Shown one piece after another: positions 6,299-34,948 of a stretch of 64,000 nt of DNA; positions within the stretch are counted from its first letter, which is position 1, and every line of letters starts with the position of its first letter. The notes under the pieces are model-generated. The model saw only the letters and a program-made list of their open reading frames with translations. It was not told the origin of the DNA and made no database searches. Origin of the DNA: Lachnospiraceae bacterium (GTDB taxonomy: Bacteria > Bacillota > Clostridia > Lachnospirales > Lachnospiraceae); contig JALELZ010000017.1 in NCBI GenBank assembly GCA_022768465.1, forward strand, positions 1 to 64,000. Direction: 5' to 3'. A program made the position numbers and the translations under genes.

Positions 6299-7443
6299 AC
6301 GTTTTCTCCTTTATCAATGATATCTGTACTTACAGTTACTTCATTATCTTCTTTAAAATCATCTTTTGGCAGCCTGGTGCTGTTATCAGAAGCTTCCTCG
6401 GATCCATAACAAGCATCCTCATTGAGGGTTTCTGAATTATCAGTTTCATTTACTGAAACATTCATTTCAGGCTCTAAAGTATTTATTTCAGGTTCCGAAG
6501 CACTCATTTCAGGCTCTGTATCGTTTGCCTCAGACTCCGAAGCAATTGTTTTTGTCTCAATAACTTTTGCTTCAGCCTCAATATCTCCTGTTTCCGATCC
6601 TGCCTCAGTTACTGCTGCTGCGGCAGCTCTTTTTCTGTTCATCTCATCCTGAACAGATCCCGGAAGCTGCCAAAGCGTTTCCTCAGCCGCCATATAAAAA
6701 ACTATCTGAGAGCATCTGATATACGGTGTGATCCACAGCATTGCAAACGGACAGATCATACCAATAAGGCTCCACGGCAAAAAGCTCAGATACATAAACC
6801 AGAAGGCCTTAAGCTTCTTTCCCTTCATCAGAGATCTTGATAGCTTAAGTGAACCGAGAACACCTTTTTCCGGTCTGTCTACTGCGATCAGTTCACATAA
6901 GAACAGTGCACACGCAAGATATACAGTTATGAGGAACAATATTATATTTCCCACGATGTAAACCGCATCAAAAATATAACCATTGTCAAAGAACAATATG
7001 CGGAATCTGTACAGCATTCCCCACACCTGTGTGAGCAGTGTGCAGACATATATAAGGGCATATTTCACAAGCCCCGTGAGAACCAATGTCCATGTTCCTG
7101 CCCCGTGTCTGAAGCCGTAAAAGATATTGCCGACACTGTATTTTCTGCCTCTTAAAATGTTTATAAACAGTTTTGTCTGTCCGTAATAGAAAAACAAAAC
7201 AAGCAGGGTACCTCCTGCGAGAAAGAGCGTGAACAATAAAGAGCAGATAATGACCATTTTCAAATCATACGGCGCATGTCCTATAACATTGCCGTAATAA
7301 AGTGCAAAACAAAGCGCAGCTGCCGCAAGCATATAAACCAGTATAGTCAAACATGAACTTATAAGCTGAGCTCCGATAACGGTTGAGTATCTGCCAAGCA
7401 GGTTCTGTCTGGCATGTGATTTGCATTCACTTACCTTTATCAT
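6295..7443 (-). CDS. DUF975-like integral membrane protein with a repetitive acidic C-terminal tail
   Basis: 382 aa; multiple hydrophobic helices, then SEPE-type acidic repeats. Confidence 0.7.
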   Translation of the reverse strand: MIKVSECKSHARQNLLGRYSTVIGAQLISSCLTILVYMLAAAALCFALYYGNVIGHAPYDLKMVIICSLLFTLFLAGGTLLVLFFYYGQTKLFINILRGRKYSVGNIFYGFRHGAGTWTLVLTGLVKYALIYVCTLLTQVWGMLYRFRILFFDNGYIFDAVYIVGNIILFLITVYLACALFLCELIAVDRPEKGVLGSLKLSRSLMKGKKLKAFWFMYLSFLPWSLIGMICPFAMLWITPYIRCSQIVFYMAAEETLWQLPGSVQDEMNRKRAAAAAVTEAGSETGDIEAEAKVIETKTIASESEANDTEPEMSASEPEINTLEPEMNVSVNETDNSETLNEDACYGSEEASDNSTRLPKDDFKEDNEVTVSTDIIDKGENV

Positions 7444-7861: not shown

Positions 7862-9328
7862 TTATCTGCAAAGCTTAGCGATGCACATAGCATAAATGAC
7901 TGCAGCTTCCTTAAGCTCGCTTATAGGCATAAACTCATTAGGCCCGTGCATGCGTGTATCTGTTGTCTCTGCAACAGCTCCGAATGCAACTCCGTTTTCT
8001 ATGTCATGAACATAGGTTCCGCCGCCGAGTGCAACGCATGAGCCCTTCTTTCCTGTTACAAGCTCATACTGCGCAAGAAGAGTTTTGACAAAATCAGACT
8101 CTGAGCTTACGACGTGCGGCTGCTTAAAGGAATATTCAAATGTGAATCCATTCTCCTCAATAAGCTTTGCTGCCTTTAATATAGTATTGTCCTCGTCCGC
8201 AAGTATAGAAGTTCTTGAGTCGAAAACAATGCTGATATGCTCTTTATCAGCTATGAAAATGTCAGGTGTAATAGTTGTCTTGCCTGACTCGGCATCCTCT
8301 AATGCTATACCAAGGCCCTCACCGTAGAAGTCACCGTAAGGGAACAGTTTAATAAGTGCTGCTATTTTTTCGTTAATGCTGCTGTTTGCAAAGCAAAGCT
8401 CAGAAAGCACATTGAGAAGTATTATTCCTGAGTTAACGCCCTCCTGAGGTGTAGATGCATGAGCGCCCTTACCTACTACAGATATCATTATGTCATTTTC
8501 AGCTGTACCCTTTTCGGCATCATCACCACAGCTGGCTGTATTGATCATATACTCGGCTTTGATCCTGCTGCCGGCATTATCGATTGCCTTTTTAACCTCG
8601 GCCTCATCAAAGCCTCTTACTATTGCATAGCCCTTTCCAGGAACTATATTAGTAGTATCTCCGCTTTCCAACTTTACAAGCTCCTTAGCTGCCTGAACCG
8701 AATCAGCTTTTTCTGAATTATCTTTAAAGTATGACAGGAGCTTTCCTCTGAACTGTCCCTTTTCAATATTTATTACAGGAAATTCTCCGTCAGGGCTGAA
8801 GGTCATAGGTGCAGGCTGCTCCACTGCATAGTAATGAGGAATATCCGATGATCCGCATTCCTCGTCGGAACCAAGAATAAGTCTGCAGTTTTTGCTTGCC
8901 TCAATGCCAAGCTCTTTAACAGCTCTCATAGCATAAAGCGCTGCCATTGCAGGTCCCTTATCATCAGATGAGCCTCTTCCGAATATCGCTCCGTCTATAA
9001 CCTTAGGCTCAAACGGCTCTGTTACAGTCCAGCCGTCTCCTGCCGCAACTACGTCCATATGTGCAAGGATATCAAGGCACTTTTCGCCCTTATTCATATC
9101 TGCAGAAATAACACGGTTTGCGTACTCTTTTGTTCTGAAGCCATAGCCTGAACAGATCTCCTTTGCAGCCATAAGCGCCTTATAAGGTCCCTCTCCGTAA
9201 GGTCTTTCGTCTGTCTCTTCTGTTTTTACAGAATTGATACGGCAAAGCTTCATGACATCTTCTGTCATTTCATTTTCGTGCTCATCTATGTATTTCTCTA
9301 TTAATTCCTTGAGTTCTAAATCAGTCAT
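7862..9328 (-). CDS. Sapep/PepV-like M20 family dipeptidase
   Basis: 488 aa; LDILAHMDVVAAGDGW, GRGSSDDKGPAMAALYAM, LGSDEECGSSD M20 motifs. Confidence 0.92.
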   Translation of the reverse strand: MTDLELKELIEKYIDEHENEMTEDVMKLCRINSVKTEETDERPYGEGPYKALMAAKEICSGYGFRTKEYANRVISADMNKGEKCLDILAHMDVVAAGDGWTVTEPFEPKVIDGAIFGRGSSDDKGPAMAALYAMRAVKELGIEASKNCRLILGSDEECGSSDIPHYYAVEQPAPMTFSPDGEFPVINIEKGQFRGKLLSYFKDNSEKADSVQAAKELVKLESGDTTNIVPGKGYAIVRGFDEAEVKKAIDNAGSRIKAEYMINTASCGDDAEKGTAENDIMISVVGKGAHASTPQEGVNSGIILLNVLSELCFANSSINEKIAALIKLFPYGDFYGEGLGIALEDAESGKTTITPDIFIADKEHISIVFDSRTSILADEDNTILKAAKLIEENGFTFEYSFKQPHVVSSESDFVKTLLAQYELVTGKKGSCVALGGGTYVHDIENGVAFGAVAETTDTRMHGPNEFMPISELKEAAVIYAMCIAKLCR

Positions 9329-24685: not shown

Positions 24686-24924
24686 GTATATGGCTTATGT
24701 TCGGTTATCTAAAATATATTGGGGGTTTTCTTATAATTAATGGTTCAAAAACCTCACAGTTAAAAGTATGTTGTGTTGGGGGTTGGTAGTTGTGCGGATG
24801 ATTACTCCTGTTTCATAAGACCTTTAGGTTTATAATTACATCAGGGGTGCCGCGTACTGCAAAGTGACATTTGTTTACAGAAAAGAGCATTTCCAAACCA
24901 TAATTATATATGGAGGATATGCTT

Positions 24925-25602
24925 ATGTATTTTGGAACAACGTTTTACCGTTTAAAAAGAATAAAGAGCACACCGACTGCTAAAGTAAAAGAGCCAAGAG
25001 GTGTAAAGCTCCCGGTACTTACGTACAGACAGCTTGCAATCATGGAAGGAAAAGCTTCAAATGTACGCAAGAATGAGTTGTCGGTATTGCTCGATAAACT
25101 GAACCGCCTGGACATGCAGAACGAATTACAGGAACTGCTGAACCGGTACGCACATTTCTTTGAATCAGAGCCTTCAGCTCCGCCAAAGTATACGCCGGTA
25201 GAAGCACATGCCCTGTTGCAGGCTATGACACCCTGGAAATTACCGTACAAGGAGACTGATGACGATATGAAACAGGACGGATTCAAGGACAGACTTCGCA
25301 TTGCCATGGAGACTGCCGGTCTGAAACAACACGATCTGGTAAGCATGACGAAGATCAGCGCAGGCAACATCTCAAGATACCTTCAGGGAACGATGAACCC
25401 GAGACCGGATAAGATCAAAGTAATGGCTGATGCACTTGGCGTCGATGCTGCATGGCTGGCAGGAGAAAGCGGAGGCAACGGCGGGAAAATGGAACTTGTG
25501 ACGCTCTTCGACAAGCTGGACAAGCAGGACCGTAAACTTGTTATGGGGCTTGCAACGGCTCTTCTGAAGGACGTAAAGTATGCTGAAGCTGCAGCAGAAT
25601 AA
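24925..25602 (+). CDS. XRE/cI-like helix-turn-helix regulator
   Basis: FKDRLRIAMETAGLKQHDLVSMTKISAGNISRYLQGTMNPRPDKIKVMADALGVDAAWLAG HTH_3. ORF opens at 24910; ATG at 24925 is 8 nt after GGAGG. Confidence 0.85.
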   Translation: MYFGTTFYRLKRIKSTPTAKVKEPRGVKLPVLTYRQLAIMEGKASNVRKNELSVLLDKLNRLDMQNELQELLNRYAHFFESEPSAPPKYTPVEAHALLQAMTPWKLPYKETDDDMKQDGFKDRLRIAMETAGLKQHDLVSMTKISAGNISRYLQGTMNPRPDKIKVMADALGVDAAWLAGESGGNGGKMELVTLFDKLDKQDRKLVMGLATALLKDVKYAEAAAE

Positions 25603-25693
25603 TCTGAAGTTTTAGGTATATAATTGTCTCTGTACGAGACAGGAAGTCACTATAAGTGTAAATTAGCATTACAACAAAAAAAATAAGCATAAC

Positions 25694-25719
25694 AAAAGCG
25701 GGACCTAAATCCCGCTTTT
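25694..25719. terminator. Shared terminator between the HTH gene and the transposase gene
   Basis: AAAAGCGGGA (25694-25703)/TCCCGCTTTT (25710-25719) perfect inverted repeat. Confidence 0.85.
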
Positions 25720-25732
25720 ATCATGCCCGTAT

Positions 25733-27223
25733 TTAAGAATAAAGCAAATCCCGTTCGGTAAGTTCGAGCAATTTGTCGATATAGGCGCCTCGAGGATAAA
25801 CTATAGTGGTTTCCTCTATGCGCTTTGACGGAAAATGAATCGTCATTCCCATCCCTCCGGAAGGAGCAAAACCGTGGTCATAAACATATTTGTATTCGGT
25901 TACGGTCCTCTTCGGAAGTGCCGCACTCTTACTGTACAATGCCTTCAGACGCAGTACTTCGAATCCGTATCCGCGTCCCTGGGTGTTTATTGCCTGTATC
26001 AGCGAGTTAAGCCCCTCGGCAGCCGCGTTGGTATAACGGCATCCCGGTTCGAAGTATCGAAAGATTTCCGTCTTCCATGCAGTCACGGTGCGTCCGAACT
26101 TCTTGAATTCCGCGAACAGCGTCTTATCCGCAGAACGGAGGAGCTTTTTCCATTCCTCGTATTCGGCTATTGCTTCAAGATAACCGTCGCATTTATAGAT
26201 GTTTGCAAATCCGTCTTTCAGCAGTCTCAACGTATCAAACTCTGGGAAGGCATAACACAGTTCAGCCGTAAGACTGAGTCTTTCAGGATTCTCGGATACT
26301 CTGTCCTCGTTGAATTTGAACAGATAGCTGTCTTTACCGGCCCTGGTCAATAAGGACTTGAAATAGGCTTTCTGGTGGCATTCAGGCATTGCATTGACCG
26401 TTGCATGGGCTTCCTCCGTCAGAAGCGTTCTCGTGCGTTTTGTGGCCTGCTGGAGCAGCTGTATGACGTGATACTTATCCACTACCTGAACGGCATTCGG
26501 AAGCAGTTCTTCAATAATCGGGCGGTAACCCTGTGCCATGTCCGTTGTTACTACTTTGATGTTCTCATAACCCTTCATGGACTTGATGAGATTCTCAACG
26601 GTTTCACGCTTATTATCCTTCGTCATCTCAAGCAGAACGCCACTTTCGATGTCCACATAGATGGCGCGCATCTTATGCTCGATATGCTTCTCATCGATTC
26701 CAAGCACCTTCGGAGCTATGAGCGGATGCGCTTCATCCATTTCACGGCCCGCCGTAACCATGATATCGGATATGGTCGGTATAGTTACAGCGTATTCCTC
26801 CGCAAGCTTCGAAAACGGCTCTGCAAAGCTTCTCAACCGGATCTGTTCATACAACCTTGTGGTGAATTTCGTACCCGGTACAAGACATTCAAATTTATGG
26901 CTGAATTTGTGCCCGCAGTCCTGGCATTTATATCTTGGAACTTCTACCTGAAGAGATACACGGATGAGTCCCTGGCTTATGTCACTGACCTTACGGTCTT
27001 TTGATTTGCCGTCAACATGATAATAGAGCGAACCGCACTCGTCACATGCCTGATTACGCTTTGAAACCGGTGATACGTGAAATATGTACTCGTAGTCATT
27101 ATCCTTCGGTTTAATGCACTCGTTTTCCTTCAGTTCCGGAATGTTCAGGCTGGGTATGGGGCGGACATACTCATACAGGTCTTTGAGTTCTTCTTTAATT
27201 GTATGATTATTATCTGCAGCCAT
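25733..27223 (-). CDS. ISL3-family-like DDE transposase
   Basis: 496 aa; N-terminal CxxC zinc motifs (CDECGSLYYH, YKCQDCGHKFS), VLGIDEKHIEH, VVTTDMAQGYRPIIEELLPNAVQVVDKYHVIQLL, NAAAEGLNSLIQAINTQGRGYGF. Confidence 0.92.
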   Translation of the reverse strand: MAADNNHTIKEELKDLYEYVRPIPSLNIPELKENECIKPKDNDYEYIFHVSPVSKRNQACDECGSLYYHVDGKSKDRKVSDISQGLIRVSLQVEVPRYKCQDCGHKFSHKFECLVPGTKFTTRLYEQIRLRSFAEPFSKLAEEYAVTIPTISDIMVTAGREMDEAHPLIAPKVLGIDEKHIEHKMRAIYVDIESGVLLEMTKDNKRETVENLIKSMKGYENIKVVTTDMAQGYRPIIEELLPNAVQVVDKYHVIQLLQQATKRTRTLLTEEAHATVNAMPECHQKAYFKSLLTRAGKDSYLFKFNEDRVSENPERLSLTAELCYAFPEFDTLRLLKDGFANIYKCDGYLEAIAEYEEWKKLLRSADKTLFAEFKKFGRTVTAWKTEIFRYFEPGCRYTNAAAEGLNSLIQAINTQGRGYGFEVLRLKALYSKSAALPKRTVTEYKYVYDHGFAPSGGMGMTIHFPSKRIEETTIVYPRGAYIDKLLELTERDLLYS

Positions 27224-27414
27224 TACTTTGCCTCACCACCGTTACTGATAAGTTTCATCTTTTCATAATAATCATCGATATACATTGCTAATGCTCTTTC
27301 AACTGCGACTGTTTTAGGCTGTCCGGAATCTTCACAGAACTGGTTTAACCTTTCATATAAAGCCTGTTCCAAACGAACTGTTACCGGATGGTTAGGTTTT
27401 GATGGTCTTGCCAT
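27223..27414 (-). CDS. Ribbon-helix-helix (CopG-like) small protein
   Basis: MARPSKPNHPVTVRLEQALYERLNQFCEDSGQPKTVAVERALAMYIDDYYEKMK. ATG at 27414 follows AAAGGAG in the helicase 3' end; its stop overlaps the transposase ATG (TAATG). Confidence 0.8.
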   Translation of the reverse strand: MARPSKPNHPVTVRLEQALYERLNQFCEDSGQPKTVAVERALAMYIDDYYEKMKLISNGGEAK

Positions 27415-27416
27415 GA

Positions 27417-30400
27417 TCACTCCTTTCCAAGCACTGAGCCAAACAGCTCGATCAACTTATCTTCAAGGGTACCTTCCTTTGCATACTGCAAAGAATCGCA
27501 CAGACGGATGTTGTGCTTCTGAATCTCAATTTCTTCCGTAAATCCAAGGATATACGCAAGAGAGATACGGTAAATGATCTCCGTAGGCGCAAGGCCGAAT
27601 ACCTGCTTTTCAAAGATATGTCGCAGTCTTTCATGGCTGTCAGGATACAAGGCTTTCATCTGCTCACTCTGGTAGAGTCGTTTTACGATTTCTGCGATAT
27701 ACATACCGGATTTCATGTAGAGATCCGCAAACGTCTTGTTCTGATCATCAAAGCATCCCGGATTCTCTTTCTCAAGACGATCTACCATATCCTTTACGAT
27801 ACGCTTTGGAGTGAATATCTGGTTGGTCTTCTGCGGAGGAATATAATCGAAGATATCCTCCGTGCTTGCCTCATCAAAGTAGTCTGCAAGACGCTTTTTA
27901 AGTACCAGGAACTCCTTTACGGAATCATTGAATACTACTGGATCAAACAGATGTCCTTTGAAGAATTCTTCCTTCCCCGTCTCCGCATTGGTGTACGGAC
28001 CACCATCACGAAGGAAACGGAACTGGTCAAGTGTGATGCTCGTAACTTCGATAAATACATTGTCCGGAATGATAAGGTCGAATGTATCGAGTGTTACTTC
28101 ATTCTCTTCGCCATAAGCCATCAGGAACGACGGAATGGTACGCGAGAAGCCTCTCAGGTGGTCTCTGATGCCATCCTCAATCGTGCGCTTCTTAGCTTCC
28201 TTTTTATCAGTTTCTACGCGTCTTACAACCTCCTCACCGGCAGACTTGACCATATCTTCAACGGATGCCGCTACAGCCTCCTTAAAGTCCTCTACGACCT
28301 GCTTCTTCTTCTCCTCGAAGGTTTTCTTTATCTCGACAGCTTCTTCCTTTGTGGCAGTGTCCAGAGCATCCTGCATGTCTGCTTCAAGGGTTGCCTGCTG
28401 TATACGAAGATCACCAAACGCACGGTTCAGCATGCTGTCTGCGTCATTATTGAGCTTCTTCTGAAGAGCGTTCTGGGTGGATTTCGTCATGTCAGAGCCA
28501 TATTTCTCGGAAGCAGTCTCCATTACTTTGTCTGTAACGTTCGTATGGAATGTCTGCTTTAATTGCTCGAGATATGCTTCCTCACGCTTTCTTTGTTCTT
28601 TTAAGTCAGCTTCAACCTGATCAAGCTGAATCGTATCAAGAATGTCATCGATCTTGTCAGCAGCCTTACTGAATATCTTTTCTCCGAAGGTCTCTGCAGC
28701 AGTGCCGATAACAAGTTCAGGCGCAAGTTCAACCTCACCGTCATCGTTAAGAGATAGTTCTTCACCCGTGCTTGTAGTAAGATCGCCCGGGTCCTTTGCC
28801 GGATCGATGGCAGTAATGATATCAAGAACTTCCTGCGGTGCATGGAAGACGTTGCTGATGTTCTGGAACAGGAAATCAGACATGAATCCACGACGCACTA
28901 CTTCTTTCGATTTAATCTTTCGAGGGATGGAAAGCACCTTCTCTGCGTCGAGCTGAATCATCTCGCCGTTCTCATCCTCACCGATTACCGGGAAGAAGTT
29001 CAGAAGCTCCCTTATGTGCTCTTCACGCGTTCCAGTATCGCCCTTGCCGGAAGATGTACTTTCAGAAAGGTCGTTTGCGAACTGCTCGAAGATGATAAGC
29101 GTTCTTGCCGGATCAAAGTCAAATACATAGGCGTTCTTCTTACGGAAGAATTCCTTGCCGTTAGTGAACAGACACGGATTCTGCGCACGGAATGCAGCCT
29201 GCATGTAAAGAGCAGGGCTCTTGATGCTTGAGAGCATCAGGACAGCCGTCCACTCCTTGATGGTGACGCCGGTCGTAAGCTGTCCAACGGACAGTGTGAT
29301 CGTCTTATCGTAGTTGGCGATTGCCTCTTTTACACGGTCAAACGACTTTGCCGCTTCCTCATCATCGTCCATACGGCCGTCACCGGCTGCGAGAACGACT
29401 TTATAGTCCTTAAATACAGGATGTTTCTCTAATTTCTTTGCAAGCGCTTTTGCACTGTCTACGCGGTTTAAGAGCCATAACGTATGTTTCAGTTCATCAC
29501 GGAGTTCCGGTGTTGAGAACGGGAACTTTTCCTGGGTGGTCATAGCATCGAGGAAACGGTTCACAGAGTCATTATGCGTGAAGCGTCCTGACTCATTGGT
29601 AGAGAAGAACTCGTTAAGATCAAATGCGTACTCAACGGTTTCTCCCTGTACTTCCGTGCCCTGTTCAAGCTCATCACGGATGATCTCTGACATCTGGTAA
29701 GTGAACATGTTGAGCTGCGGAAGGTTCTGATATGGATTCTCAGTGCCTACTTCCTGCTTCCAATCACGTTTTGCCTTCTGCTCATCGGCGTAGGTCCAGT
29801 TGTAGATAGCATTCGCCGGGAACTTCTCGTTAGCGAGCGCCTTGAATGGCGTACCGGAGAGGTGCAGAGTATGCTTGCGCTTGATATGGTCAAAAGCCAC
29901 ATCTGTCTTATATGTATCTACGCCCTCGTGTGCCTCATCGATAACGAGGATGTCCCATTCGAGATCAGCCACTTCACGCAGCTTATCGTATTTTCCACCG
30001 AAGTATTTGGAGCCCTTCAGGTCCTGAAGCGATACGAATTCGATGCATCCATACTCCTCACCCTCATTACGGGTGCGAAGCTCCATTATGTATTCCTGAC
30101 GCGTCATAACGAGAGGACGGTCTTTAATACCATCAACGGTACTTACAAAGCGATATCCGTGTTCGGTGCCGACAAATCTCTCGTAATCTTCGTACCATGA
30201 GTTAGCGATAGCAGGTCTGTTCGTAACAACAAGAACTCTCTCTGCGCCAAGTGTCATGCAGAGATCGTAAACGCCAAGTGTTTTGCCAAAACGTGGTTTT
30301 GCATTCCAGAGGAATTCGCCGTTCTCATGCATGGCAAAGTAGTCAAAAGCCTTCTCTACGGCTTCCTTCTGTTCATTGCGAAGAGAGTACGGAACAACTC

Positions 30401-30776
30401 CTGAAGTAGTCTTTAATACTCCTCGATTGCTCTTAAAATCGAAGAACATACCTCGGGATACGGGTCCCGTAACATGGAACCACTCATTATCCTTGGTCTT
30501 ATCGTTCTCAATGCCATTTTTACGAAGGTATGCATGGAAATCAGTGTCATGGAATGTTTCACCCGAACCATCATCAAAGATGGCAGTACCACGCCATTCC
30601 TCTTTATATTCAACATCGGCAGTATGCGTCTGCTGCTCAAGACGCTTATCTACGTCCTGTTCTGTATAGCCGATTTTAGTCCAGCCATCGTGTCTTTTGA
30701 TCTCCGGAGTGGTATAGGCATAGATCATCGGCACGATCTTTTTGGCAGTCTGAAGTTCAATCTTTTTAGTTGCCAC
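27417..30776 (-). CDS. GIY-YIG-like nuclease/SF2 DEAH helicase/methyltransferase-like fusion (restriction-type protein)
   Basis: 1119 aa; N-terminal YAYTTPEIKRHDGWTKIGYTEQDVDKRLEQQ; helicase motifs KPRFGKT, VIDEAHE, LSGTPFKA, QAAFRAQNP; C-terminal FTPKRIVKDMVD...FADLYMKSGMYIAEIVKRLY...VFGLAPTEIIYRIS. GTG start directly follows the previous stop. Confidence 0.85.
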   Translation of the reverse strand: MATKKIELQTAKKIVPMIYAYTTPEIKRHDGWTKIGYTEQDVDKRLEQQTHTADVEYKEEWRGTAIFDDGSGETFHDTDFHAYLRKNGIENDKTKDNEWFHVTGPVSRGMFFDFKSNRGVLKTTSGVVPYSLRNEQKEAVEKAFDYFAMHENGEFLWNAKPRFGKTLGVYDLCMTLGAERVLVVTNRPAIANSWYEDYERFVGTEHGYRFVSTVDGIKDRPLVMTRQEYIMELRTRNEGEEYGCIEFVSLQDLKGSKYFGGKYDKLREVADLEWDILVIDEAHEGVDTYKTDVAFDHIKRKHTLHLSGTPFKALANEKFPANAIYNWTYADEQKAKRDWKQEVGTENPYQNLPQLNMFTYQMSEIIRDELEQGTEVQGETVEYAFDLNEFFSTNESGRFTHNDSVNRFLDAMTTQEKFPFSTPELRDELKHTLWLLNRVDSAKALAKKLEKHPVFKDYKVVLAAGDGRMDDDEEAAKSFDRVKEAIANYDKTITLSVGQLTTGVTIKEWTAVLMLSSIKSPALYMQAAFRAQNPCLFTNGKEFFRKKNAYVFDFDPARTLIIFEQFANDLSESTSSGKGDTGTREEHIRELLNFFPVIGEDENGEMIQLDAEKVLSIPRKIKSKEVVRRGFMSDFLFQNISNVFHAPQEVLDIITAIDPAKDPGDLTTSTGEELSLNDDGEVELAPELVIGTAAETFGEKIFSKAADKIDDILDTIQLDQVEADLKEQRKREEAYLEQLKQTFHTNVTDKVMETASEKYGSDMTKSTQNALQKKLNNDADSMLNRAFGDLRIQQATLEADMQDALDTATKEEAVEIKKTFEEKKKQVVEDFKEAVAASVEDMVKSAGEEVVRRVETDKKEAKKRTIEDGIRDHLRGFSRTIPSFLMAYGEENEVTLDTFDLIIPDNVFIEVTSITLDQFRFLRDGGPYTNAETGKEEFFKGHLFDPVVFNDSVKEFLVLKKRLADYFDEASTEDIFDYIPPQKTNQIFTPKRIVKDMVDRLEKENPGCFDDQNKTFADLYMKSGMYIAEIVKRLYQSEQMKALYPDSHERLRHIFEKQVFGLAPTEIIYRISLAYILGFTEEIEIQKHNIRLCDSLQYAKEGTLEDKLIELFGSVLGKE

Positions 30777-31850
30777 TTATACCATCTCCTTTACATTAGT
30801 TTCGATGAAGTCGATTTCTTCCTTGCTTAAGCCATACTTGCGGTATAGCTGAAGATCGATTTCGTGAATCGATTTTGACCAGTCAATGCTTGAAGATGAA
30901 GAAAAGTCTTCAAGAGGAATGTATTTAAAGTTACCTGGTGTAATGTTTTGGGTTTTCTTCAACACTGATAACAGAGTTCTTGAAAACTTACATTTTAAGT
31001 ATTTGAGTAAGTTCTCAGCTTCGTTTTTATCATTGAAAAATCCAATACTAAAAAAGGTTTCAGTATGACCCATTCGAGGCTCCGCAACAAAGGATGGCCC
31101 TAACGTTTCTCCAAAGGCACCTATTCCACTAGCCTTTGGAATAAAGACTTTATATTTATCCAGATTAGATACTTCGTTAATGTATCTCGCCTTAATAAAA
31201 CGATTTACTCTTTCATTATTTGCTCTACCGACAATAATGATATAGTCATCTGAATCCGGCTTGCTGTTGTGAAATACCATTGGCAATTTTTCAATTACAT
31301 TTGATTTCAAATCATATTCATGACCCTTGCTCATCAATGGACGTTCTTTCCCGTCAACAATGATAGTCATTTTCTTTATTTCCGGATGATCAGCATGCAT
31401 TGTTTCTGTAAAATGATATGAATATCCAGAAACGCCAATATCTGCAATAGATTTTTTCTGAACATACGGAAGCACTTTTTTAAGAATTGTATTAAGAGTT
31501 TCGTATGGAGTGAATATATCAATTGCACCAAAGTCTCTGCTTTCATCGCGATAAGTAATTGCTACACCACCTTTAATATCTGTGTTTGGGAAAATATTGG
31601 TTGCGTCTTCTTCATAATGAAGCACCTTAAAATGCGGATCGTGAAGCATTTTTTCATTCCATGCCTTTGGCGTAGAACCTGCATTAAACAAAAATCTTGC
31701 TGGATGTATCATTTCTACGCAATCCGCTACTTTTGCAGATTCGTCTAAAAATTTATCATATACTGGTGGTGCAAACCCTTTATTATCTCCAATGGTTTGA
31801 TCCTGATAAGGGGGATTGCCAATAACAAAATCAAATATCTTCTTTTTCAT
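30777..31850 (-). CDS. Eco57I-type adenine methyltransferase polypeptide (catalytic NPPY half plus putative target recognition region)
   Basis: 357 aa; starts MKKKIFDFVIGNPPYQ (motif IV at the very N-terminus), no motif I. C-terminus SIDWSKSIHEIDLQLYRKYGLSKEEIDFIE. Confidence 0.85.
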   Translation of the reverse strand: MKKKIFDFVIGNPPYQDQTIGDNKGFAPPVYDKFLDESAKVADCVEMIHPARFLFNAGSTPKAWNEKMLHDPHFKVLHYEEDATNIFPNTDIKGGVAITYRDESRDFGAIDIFTPYETLNTILKKVLPYVQKKSIADIGVSGYSYHFTETMHADHPEIKKMTIIVDGKERPLMSKGHEYDLKSNVIEKLPMVFHNSKPDSDDYIIIVGRANNERVNRFIKARYINEVSNLDKYKVFIPKASGIGAFGETLGPSFVAEPRMGHTETFFSIGFFNDKNEAENLLKYLKCKFSRTLLSVLKKTQNITPGNFKYIPLEDFSSSSSIDWSKSIHEIDLQLYRKYGLSKEEIDFIETNVKEMV

Positions 31851-31852
31851 AG

Positions 31853-32803
31853 TTACCCACGCTCCTTACACTTTCTATATTCATAAGTTCTGTCAGCGCG
31901 CCAATCATAAATTCTACAATACGGCGCTTTGTCATCTACTTCCTGTGTTTCCGCCATCATAAGTTCCGGATAGAGATCAAACAATGATGTCTGTTCATAC
32001 TCCTGAACTGGTTTGCCGAGTGGCACAGTGTCCTTCAAACCATCCATCTGCCAGATGTTCCAGCTAATGATGCCTGCAATATGCTGCATCAGCTTCTTAT
32101 CTGGTTCCTTGTTCCACCGTTGCTTGTAATATTCATAATACGTCAGGAATACGTTGCATCTTGCCAGTAAGAGACTGTCACCTTGCCATTCAAAGCCGTA
32201 GCAGCTCTGTACAGCACGTTCTGCCCATTTAAGCCATTCATCCTCGGTGGCTGCATTCTCATTAACTACACGAAGTTTTCTATCAAGCATTCCGATTCGT
32301 CTGATTGGCGGAACAATGAGTTCACCGGTGGTGGTATCGTAGCGTGAAACAAGATACGGTGCTTCACCACACGTGATTTCAAGTCTTCTGGAATCAACAT
32401 ACGCCTTCCAGGTATTTTTTTCATCAAACAGGATCGGCCCTTCTGTCACTGTCCAACTGTTATCTTCATTCTCGTGATTGAAAACATCAGGTCTTCCAAA
32501 CCACTGCTCATCCGCATAGTTGTTCATCTTATTGCAAAGCCATACGGGCGTCATTACCTCTGCCTTCTTGCGAGTGCGTTCCTGCTGTTCCTCAAGAGTT
32601 TTACTGATGCGTGGCTGAAGCACAATGGAGAAAGGGCCCGTGATCGCACTCTTGGAAATATGACTTCTATCTGTAAACTCTGGACCATATGATTCATAAG
32701 CATCCGTAGCCCATATGATATTCTGTTTAGTCGTCTTATCGCGAAGAAGAATGGTTAATACATCTCTTAACGGATAAGTCTTAATATCAATCAACTCTGA
32801 CAA
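31853..32803 (-). CDS. Methyltransferase-like restriction subunit M polypeptide (SAM-binding half, no NPPY)
   Basis: 316 aa; VMTPVWLCNKMNNYADEQWFG, LEITCGEAPYLVSRYD, YGFEWQGDSLLLARCNVFLTYYEYY. TTG start after AAGGAG. Confidence 0.7.
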   Translation of the reverse strand: MSELIDIKTYPLRDVLTILLRDKTTKQNIIWATDAYESYGPEFTDRSHISKSAITGPFSIVLQPRISKTLEEQQERTRKKAEVMTPVWLCNKMNNYADEQWFGRPDVFNHENEDNSWTVTEGPILFDEKNTWKAYVDSRRLEITCGEAPYLVSRYDTTTGELIVPPIRRIGMLDRKLRVVNENAATEDEWLKWAERAVQSCYGFEWQGDSLLLARCNVFLTYYEYYKQRWNKEPDKKLMQHIAGIISWNIWQMDGLKDTVPLGKPVQEYEQTSLFDLYPELMMAETQEVDDKAPYCRIYDWRADRTYEYRKCKERG

Positions 32804-32861
32804 ATATATTCTCCTTATTTCAATAATAAAGTGATAGTCAATATGTATCTATTATATGTTG

Positions 32862-32890
32862 ATTATAAAAGCGTATTCTTGTTTATGCAA
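32862..32890 (-). promoter_or_regulatory. Promoter of the R-M/transposase operon
   Basis: Minus strand TTGCAT (32885-32890), 17 bp, TATAAT (32862-32867), just inside the right inverted repeat. Confidence 0.75.
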
Positions 32891-32961
32891 TACAAAACAG
32901 TACAAATTGCATTTTTATCAAAATACAAAACCCCCAACATATTTTACAGAATCTCTCCACT

Positions 32962-32991
32962 AAAAAAGGAGGCTGAGATTACTCAGCCCCC
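32962..32991 (-). terminator. Intrinsic terminator of the TPR lipoprotein gene
   Basis: Minus strand GGGGGCTGAG-TAAT-CTCAGCCTCC-TTTTTT. Confidence 0.8.
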
Positions 32992-33010
32992 AATAAATTT
33001 AATATATCCC

Positions 33011-33661
33011 TTATGTTCTGCTTCTGCAGAATTCATACTCCTTTTTTGCTGCCTCATCATCCGGGAATTTCTCCGTATATTGATTTAAAAGCTCTGCTGC
33101 CTCATCAAATTTACCGAGATATTCCTGGCAGACCGCCATGTTGTACCAGGCTGTGCGGCCTGCAAGTGTGCCGTCAAGCACAGCGTACTTTTCAAGCTCC
33201 TCATAAGCCGATCTGTATTCACCGGCTTCAAACATCTCATTTGCACTTTTTATGGCATCAAGAGCATCCAGCTGAGTAAGAAGCTTATTATACTCATCTG
33301 TATTTTCCTTGACTTCATCAAGCTTTACGAGCGCTTCATAAGCAGTCTTGGCCTCGCTGTAATCGCCTATTCGAAGCTCACACTCCGCCTTATATTTAAG
33401 TATGTCATACTGCAGGCCCGATACCTGACCGTCAGATGCCTCAAGAGCCTCATCAAGCTTTGAAAGAGCCCCCTGATAATCACCCTGCTGATAAAGAGCT
33501 ACAGCTTCATCTCTTAATTCATAGCGATCAGCACCCCTTGTACAGCCTGTAAAGCAAATACATACAGCTGCCGCAAATGTCAGTAGTCTTGCAGTATATG
33601 ATTTATCTGATATTCTTTTCTTCTGCATTGATTTTCCGTGATCAAAACTCATCTTTGTCAA
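33011..33661 (-). CDS. TPR-repeat putative lipoprotein
   Basis: 216 aa; signal with lipobox-like CFTGC, then tetratricopeptide-like repeats (YQQGDYQGALSKLDEAL). Confidence 0.75.
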   Translation of the reverse strand: MTKMSFDHGKSMQKKRISDKSYTARLLTFAAAVCICFTGCTRGADRYELRDEAVALYQQGDYQGALSKLDEALEASDGQVSGLQYDILKYKAECELRIGDYSEAKTAYEALVKLDEVKENTDEYNKLLTQLDALDAIKSANEMFEAGEYRSAYEELEKYAVLDGTLAGRTAWYNMAVCQEYLGKFDEAAELLNQYTEKFPDDEAAKKEYEFCRSRT

Positions 33662-33713
33662 ATCTGGTTTATATAAGCTAATTATTCAAAGCCTTATTAT
33701 TTATCCCTGTATC

Positions 33714-34238
33714 TTATCTTCCGGTACTTCCGAAGCCGCCGTTTCTTCCTGCGTCGACAGCATCATCCTCCGTAATGCCGTAAACAGTAAATATTCCCTG
33801 AACAAATGCATCTTTAGCCTTGAGTACTACGGTCTTATCCTCTCTGGAATCATTTATCATCGGCACAAATATATGCCCTTCATTGTCGCTGTTATAGTAA
33901 TCGCTGTCAATGACTCCGGTCGTATTATTGAGCTGGAAGCGAAATTTAGAGCCAAGCCCGCTTCTCGGCATTATGAAAAGGCAATAGTCCTCTCTCATGC
34001 GAACCCTTATGCCTGTAGGGATCTTAATGCTTTCACCCGGCTTTAAGGTGATGTCTATAGGTGTGCATATATCATAACCTGCAGAACCTGAGGTTGCTCT
34101 TTGCGGCAGCTTTACGGCTTCATAAATTTCCTTTGCTTTCTGCTCATCCATGCCGCCATGATCCGCAAACAGCTTCATCATATCCTTAGTAAACTGCTCT
34201 ATGGAAACCTTTTCAAATTTTGCTATTCTTTCCATCAT
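33714..34238 (-). CDS. dut: dUTP diphosphatase-like protein
   Basis: 174 aa; SGSAGYD, PRSGLGSK, NTTGVIDSDYYNSDNEGHI, GGFGSTGR. Confidence 0.9.
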   Translation of the reverse strand: MMERIAKFEKVSIEQFTKDMMKLFADHGGMDEQKAKEIYEAVKLPQRATSGSAGYDICTPIDITLKPGESIKIPTGIRVRMREDYCLFIMPRSGLGSKFRFQLNNTTGVIDSDYYNSDNEGHIFVPMINDSREDKTVVLKAKDAFVQGIFTVYGITEDDAVDAGRNGGFGSTGR

Positions 34239-34261
34239 TATTTATGTTCCTTTTTCTTAGC

Positions 34262-34948
34262 TTATGTGTTATCCGTATCTGCCTCTTCTCCGAGTATATC
34301 CCTGATCTCGACCTGAACCTCATCTTCAATAAGAGATTCCGTTTCTGCTCCTACCTTCGGCATTCTATGCTCCTTATCCACACCGAAGCGCCTGTAGAAT
34401 TCATCTGTAGGGCCAAACAATATTGGCTTACCCGGTGCATTAAGTCTGCCCTTTTCCTCAACAAGCCCGTACTCTATGAGCTTATTTACAGCAAAATCGC
34501 TCTTAACTCCTCTTATTTTTTCTATCTCGACCTTTGTCGATGGGTTTTTATTGGCTATAATGGCTAATGTCTCCATCATGACCTCACTGAGCTCAGGTTT
34601 TTTAGGTGTTGATACAACTCTTACAAGATTATCAAAAACCTCCGGACTCGTGCACATCTGGTATTTGCCGTCTATATCCTTTATAATAAGTGAGCTCTTC
34701 TCATCGTTCAGAAGCTTTATAAGTGCCTTTGTTTCTTTTTCAGCCTCGGAATTTTCCACACCGCAGGCTCTTGCAAGCTCAGTAACACTTACAGGTCTTG
34801 ATAATGTAAAAAGCACCGCCTCTATCACCTTCTGCGCATCGCTTTTTACAGGCCTTGGAGCAATGCTCACTCCGCCTATCTCAAGACAGAGCTGTTCATC
34901 GCCGGGCTGTTCATTTTTATTAATTTTTTTATCCATTTCCATGTCCAT
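34262..34948 (-). CDS. scpB: Segregation and condensation protein B
   Basis: 228 aa; VIEAVLFTLSRPVSVTELA, LAIIANKNPSTKVEIEKIRGVKSDFAVNKLIEYGLVEEKGR. Confidence 0.93.
   Translation of the reverse strand: MDMEMDKKINKNEQPGDEQLCLEIGGVSIAPRPVKSDAQKVIEAVLFTLSRPVSVTELARACGVENSEAEKETKALIKLLNDEKSSLIIKDIDGKYQMCTSPEVFDNLVRVVSTPKKPELSEVMMETLAIIANKNPSTKVEIEKIRGVKSDFAVNKLIEYGLVEEKGRLNAPGKPILFGPTDEFYRRFGVDKEHRMPKVGAETESLIEDEVQVEIRDILGEEADTDNT

Follow-up and report, generated by a model that had tools for sequence, protein, structure and literature searches.

The 64,000-nucleotide stretch of a Lachnospiraceae bacterium genome analysed here (contig JALELZ010000017.1, positions 1 to 64,000, of assembly GCA_022768465.1; hereafter the window) carries a block of accessory genes beside a gene for a TPR protein. 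From left to right these are an accessory gene with an XRE-type helix-turn-helix (HTH) domain on the plus strand, followed by genes for a transposase, a ribbon-helix-helix (RHH) protein and three restriction-modification (R-M) components, RES, MT and MU, all on the minus strand. The five minus-strand genes touch or overlap, forming an operon in the order MU-MT-RES-RHH-transposase, and all open reading frames (ORFs) in the block are open. With high confidence, we interpret positions 24703-33009 as an autonomous ISL3-family transposon of 8,307 bp that carries a three-gene, split Type ISP/IIG-like R-M operon as its passenger. This interpretation stands on the tips, subterminal repeats, duplication and gene content of the element, on its clade membership, and on relatives with perfect duplications. 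A previous sequence-only reading had already proposed that the R-M operon, HTH gene and ISL3 transposase form a single mobile unit, bounded by inverted ends and by an 8-bp duplication of ISL3 type. That proposal holds for a unit of about 8.3 kb, although its borders have to be moved. The features are, in window coordinates:

24694-24702, plus strand: left copy of the target duplication, CTTATGTTC, an exact 9-bp direct repeat abutting the tip
24703-24725, plus strand: left terminal repeat (tip), GGTTATCTAAAATATATTGGGGG, rank 1 of 127,952 positions in the tip model described below
24774-24784, plus strand: left subterminal repeat, TGTTGGGGGTT, 57 bp inward of the tip copy
24910-25602, plus strand: accessory gene, with a clade-conserved N-terminal domain and an XRE-type HTH (Pfam HTH_31/HTH_3); homologues in the related elements L163 and L156
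25685-25728, minus strand: terminator-like hairpin 3' of the transposase gene, between the convergent transposase and accessory genes
25733-27223, minus strand: ISL3-family transposase, 496 aa, with zinc ribbon and DDE core; last gene of the operon
27223-27420, minus strand: RHH (CopG/Arc-like) protein, PF01402, overlapping both neighbours by 1-4 nt
27417-30776, minus strand: RES, with a T5orf172 (GIY-YIG type) nuclease, an SF2 helicase and the N-terminal half of an adenine methyltransferase (PF10544, PF04851, PDLC03626)
30777-31850, minus strand: MT, a methyltransferase half with NPPY motif IV and a presumed target-recognition part (PF07669 Eco57I, PDLC03375)
31853-32803, minus strand: MU, third R-M component and first gene of the operon (MTase_II-type PDLC03390, 2.9e-108)
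32927-32953, minus strand: right subterminal repeat, GATTCTGTAAAATATGTTGGGGGTTTT, containing the right arm of the sequence-only reading; rank 2 in the tip model
32968-32991, minus strand: terminator-like hairpin within the right end, facing transcription from the TPR side
32987-33009, minus strand: right terminal repeat (tip), GGATATATTAAATTTATTGGGGG, 19/23 with the left tip; rank 3 in the tip model
33010-33018, plus strand: right copy of the target duplication, CTTATGTTC, including the TPR stop codon at 33011-33013

The presence of an ISL3 transposase inside the block, as first read, is borne out by matches to NF033550 (225.3 bits, cut-off 180) and PF01610 (143.6 bits, cut-off 23; 1.2e-41). 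Its DDE and zinc-ribbon residues are conserved, and its core is intact. Relatives within the family are remote (28-32% identity at best), and single-sequence searches of GTDB species genomes and IMG/VR for close copies returned remote matches or none. The closest transposases are those of L163, an IMG/VR contig (42%), and L156 (MT836889), a phage-labelled 8.35-kb scaffold from human faeces (41%). In a phylogenetic tree these two and the window transposase form a clade with 100/100 support. Further copies of the element are lacking in the host genome, where the transposase has a copy number of one; L163 and L156 share its clade, tips and accessory gene.

L163 is a complete element of 3,080 bp, with tips GGCTATGTAAAATCTGATGTGGGTT and GGCTATGTAAAATTTGATGTGGGTT, internal copies TTTCTGTAAAAT... 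and a perfect flanking duplication, AAAAAGGG. Convergent to its transposase lies a gene homologous to the N-terminal part of the window HTH gene (BLASTP 7e-11). When the protein of this gene was compared with 50,697 phage records, a single record matched, namely L156. The accessory gene thus sits beside the transposase in the window, L163 and L156, and is therefore a conserved component of the transposon clade, its N-terminal domain being found in three of three members. The AlphaFold model of the window accessory protein was of low confidence (pLDDT 52) and was not used. L156 has a tip at 8135 (GGATATCTAAGATTTGATGTGGGATT) and, beside its transposase, a divergent hsdR and part of an hsdS-like gene. 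This hsdR probably lies inside the element, the other end of which is off the scaffold. A small protein encoded after the L156 transposase (6961-7188) resembles RHH proteins by eye, has no family match, and recalls the RHH gene of the window.

The ends of the window element were located with a 25-mer position-weight matrix built from the L163 and L156 tips alone, with no window sequence in training. Of the 127,952 positions on the two window strands, the three best-scoring were 24703 on the plus strand (20.7 bits) and 32953 and 33009 on the minus strand (18.1 and 16.9 bits), with the fourth at only 9.8. We place the left tip at 24703 and the right tip at 33009. Both open with GG, and they show 19/23 inverted identity, fitting ISL3 terminal repeats of about 15-40 bp. 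A right tip at 32953 was ruled out: it has no duplication, and it opens with GATTCTG, resembling the L163 internal copies rather than tips. Indeed, TTCTGTAAAAT within this right subterminal repeat matches those internal copies. Each end thus has two repeat copies, one at the tip and the other about 56-57 bp inward (GGGGG copies are spaced 57 bp apart at the left end and 56 bp at the right), in inverted orientation between the ends. This plan of a tip plus internal repeats is common to the window element, L163, and the more distant transposons L068 and L069 described below.

The same repeats explain what was first seen at this locus. The inverted repeat of the sequence-only reading, TAAAATATATTGGGGGTTTT at 24710-24729 with AAAACCCCCAACATATTTTA at 32927-32946, matches at 19/20 positions and is the best inverted pair of the 9.3-kb region. 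In ungapped comparison of the two intergenic flanks it scores 17.5, followed by 24703-24725/32987-33009 (13.0) and 24774-24784/32929-32939 (11). The remaining pairs score no more than 10, placing the match far above chance. The three top pairs are copies of a single terminal/subterminal repeat, present twice per end. The arms do not mark the edges of the block, as the right tip lies 63 bp further out. On the earlier borders, the element would span 24721-32935, the ends being 9 bp long (GGGGGTTTT) and the duplication 8 bp with one mismatch (AATATATT/AACATATT). GGGGGTTTT is indeed perfectly inverted, and the outside 8-mers are present and match at 7/8 positions, yet the inverted match does not stop at the putative duplication but continues outward across it (19/20; 22/25). 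Because AATATATT reads the same on both strands, an inverted repeat at this point mimics a direct one. Further, related elements open with GG[C/A]TAT...TAA, with GTGGG about 19 bp in from the tip, and a perfect duplication flanks 24703/33009 instead. We consider these borders very improbable: the ends are GGTTATCTAAAATATATTGGGGG and GGATATATTAAATTTATTGGGGG, the earlier 8-mers are terminal-repeat sequence, and the true duplication is CTTATGTTC.

Directly outside both tips lies the perfect 9-bp direct repeat CTTATGTTC (24694-24702 and 33010-33018), which we read as an 8-bp ISL3-type duplication plus one base matching by chance. A random 8-bp match at the given tips, allowing a shift of one base either way, arose in 27 of 200,000 trials, or about 1 in 7,400. 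Insertion took place at the TPR stop codon and left the protein unchanged, its end being preserved as ...EYEFCRSRT*. None of the neighbouring ORFs is broken, as was first proposed. The landing site is not downstream of a TPR terminator, and the hairpin at 32968-32991 that had been given this role lies within the right end of the element. With ends, duplication and landing site all misplaced, the empty site predicted earlier was also wrong. The corrected prediction is ...GTATATGGCTTATGTTC|TGCTTCTGCAGAATTC..., or GTATATGGCTTATGTTCTGCTTCTGCAGAATTC in contiguous form. In the genus, the gene order TPR-dut-scpB is conserved (33011-34948 in the window; L114, L117, L122 and L124-L134). In many relatives nrdD and NrdR-box-like repeats come after the TPR gene, where CorC is found here. 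A search of Rfam gave no matches.

Could the block instead be a genomic or defence island gained by another route, its ISL3 transposase a later, IS-like passenger? R-M systems of this kind do occur in many contexts without a transposase. Here, in contrast, the transposase gene shares an operon with the RHH and R-M genes, with overlaps of 1-4 nt, the only tip and subterminal repeats enclose the whole block rather than the transposase alone, and the duplication abuts the 24703/33009 tips, making an island origin highly improbable. Nor do the R-M genes lie between two insertion sequence (IS) copies: there is a single transposase gene, and the element is not a composite, IS-flanked R-M transposon.

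Several observations weigh against identifying the block as an ISL3 transposon. The direct repeat is 9 bp long where 8 bp are expected, requiring that one base be a coincidence, and the right tip matches the tip consensus less well than the left (10/13 versus 11/13). Neither an empty site nor a second copy was found in the genomes searched, and the site lacks synteny in other species of the genus. The empty-site pattern is absent from 19 relatives, but it was drawn from the earlier, uncorrected junction, so this absence says little. The assembly comprises 33 contigs, though the locus sits within one of them. A related possibility, compatible with an ISL3 transposon as regards origin, is that the element arrived by transposition and is now an immobile relic. 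It is a single copy in its genome, and its tips differ at 4 of 23 positions. On the other hand, the element has open ORFs throughout, an intact transposase core and a perfect duplication, and related elements such as L069 also have tips that differ between their two ends. We regard immobility as possible, though less likely than continued mobility.

RES carries the helicase motifs GKT, DEAH and SGTP, and the adenine methyltransferase is split across 27417-31850, with a motif I-like sequence at the end of RES and the motif IV NPPY at the start of MT; the order of the two genes is swapped. On the Pediococcus plasmid pRS5, one 1,417-aa protein aligns to both RES (1-1079) and MT (1074-1417), and the gene preceding it aligns to MU. 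Because pRS5 fuses what is separate here, with a MU homologue in front, the cargo is best described as a split, order-swapped form of a Type ISP/IIG-like enzyme, with a predicted R-M activity. In relatives, MU is conserved at a position upstream of MT/RES; two other genomes (L104, L106) encode MT and MU as a fusion. The system is not a Type ISP enzyme in the strict sense of a single polypeptide with Mrr-type nuclease, helicase, coupler, methyltransferase and recognition domain, since it has three genes and a T5orf172 nuclease. Neither is it Type I, as no window protein matched HSDR_N, HsdM or HsdS. Sequence searches of the PDB gave no match for RES, MT or MU, and the AlphaFold model of MU was of low confidence (pLDDT 41) and was not used.

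Homologues of RES occur in about 5% of 397 genomes of the family and also on plasmids, most full-length ones being 51-68% identical. Among the R-M homologue contexts examined in genomes and plasmids, several of which end at contig edges, none has either the RHH or the ISL3 gene. This suggests that the R-M system and the transposase were joined in the lineage of the window element, cargo and transposase probably having separate histories. A serine recombinase gene lies upstream of the same R-M family in two cases (L104:4322-4927 and L108:3736-4338), perhaps representing another mobility route.

The window element is not alone in combining an ISL3 transposase with restriction genes. L068 (11.3 kb) and L069 (9.6 kb) are transposons from two other genera of the family. 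In both, hsdM-hsdS-hsdR is followed by an ISL3 transposase on the same strand, the ends have up to four inverted repeat copies, and the duplications are perfect (GTTTTTTA and AATATTTT, respectively). Plasmid elements have the same order, namely L150 and L151 from Acinetobacter and the ISSm4-type L152 and L153, with perfect 8-bp duplications at L151 (TTTATTTC) and L153 (TTTATTTT). Altogether, five related elements have 8-bp duplications (L163, L068, L069, L151 and L153). In the tree, the transposases associated with Type I R-M systems form their own clade (100/98), apart from that of the window. Two separate clades with different R-M types make it probable that R-M operons of different types entered ISL3 elements on more than one occasion, and R-M-bearing ISL3 transposons are thus recurrent. 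In the window and in the second clade alike, the transposase lies 3' of the restriction gene on the same strand, the exception being L156 with its divergent hsdR. L068 also has a PIF1-like helicase gene and a small gene between transposase and right end (L068:10925-13010; G262). In Bacillus phage BSP9 (L157:5453-7350) and Vibrio phage K256 (L158:5007-7347), an ISL3 transposase gene directly follows a DNA methyltransferase gene, possibly a solitary-methyltransferase version of the same partnership.

We infer that the element is able to move and its R-M system to act, on the basis of sequence and of known ISL3 biology. Judging from gene order, expression of the R-M operon should co-produce the transposase, its last gene. 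The enzyme would bind the tip and subterminal repeats and synapse the ends, and DDE transposition from the two tips, aided by the subterminal repeats, would place the unit in an A/T-rich target site, 8 bp of which are duplicated, as the observed duplications suggest. Regulation, of either the operon or the ends, is the probable role of the accessory/HTH and RHH proteins. Once installed, the R-M system would restrict unmethylated DNA, as a presumed defence against phages, and post-segregational attack should make loss of the element costly. Takahashi et al. (2011, PMC3031569) demonstrated in Escherichia coli that an R-M system can itself exert selection in favour of its IS-linked integration, a finding that makes a partnership between R-M system and transposase plausible. 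A bolder version holds that this partnership is recurrent and functionally coupled, having arisen at least twice, with R-M expression, methylation state or restriction-induced breaks controlling transposition and the R-M system protecting the element from loss. We think this rather unlikely.

Among known elements, ISPst2 is an ISL3 member of 2,985 bp with GGGTAT... ends, 8-bp duplications such as GGGTATCCGGAATTTCTGGTTGAT, and two passenger genes (PMC6305408). The window element resembles it in transposase family, GG-starting inverted repeats of 23-25 bp, 8-bp duplications, and passengers beside the transposase. It differs in size (8.3 kb versus 3 kb) and in having a whole R-M operon with the transposase last, an accessory gene and subterminal copies. 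With the ISSm4-type and Acinetobacter elements (L150-L153) it shares an R-M operon followed by a same-strand ISL3 transposase, GGCTAT tips, and the perfect 8-bp duplications of L151 and L153. Those elements differ in their Type I hsdM/S/R cargo and in belonging to a different, well-supported transposase clade, and no accessory or RHH gene of the window type was seen in them.

R-M systems on transposons are already known (PMC3031569, PMC4176335, PMC8649781), and they have been viewed as selfish, IS-linked mobile units (Takahashi et al. 2011; Furuta et al. 2010, as cited in PMC4176335). As in those units, the R-M genes here are on transposable DNA, and post-segregational killing offers a rationale for the partnership. 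Unlike those systems, which are IS-flanked or composite units or long-duplication insertions, the window element has its own single transposase and ends. The Type ISP enzymes LlaBIII and LlaGI (PMC4666363, PMC4872093) likewise combine nuclease, SF2 helicase-like ATPase, methyltransferase and recognition parts that must act together. They differ from the window system, which has a T5orf172/GIY-YIG-type nuclease, a two-gene, order-swapped methyltransferase, and the additional MU. ISSm4-type ISL3 transposases are already annotated in databases as neighbours of Type I hsdR, and our literature search found no paper describing R-M-bearing ISL3 transposons, ISSm4 being no more than named in two papers. 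The novelty lies in the ISL3 clade, which is a different one and has its own accessory gene, in the split Type ISP/IIG-like cargo, and in the precision of the ends.

For an autonomous R-M transposon in a Clostridia-type genome, the ends are now defined exactly and can be tested. The operons borne by two separate ISL3 clades are large, differ in R-M type and have the transposase as their terminal gene. Such transposons offer the long-noted horizontal spread of R-M systems a concrete means of transport, one that needs no flanking IS copies, plasmid or phage.

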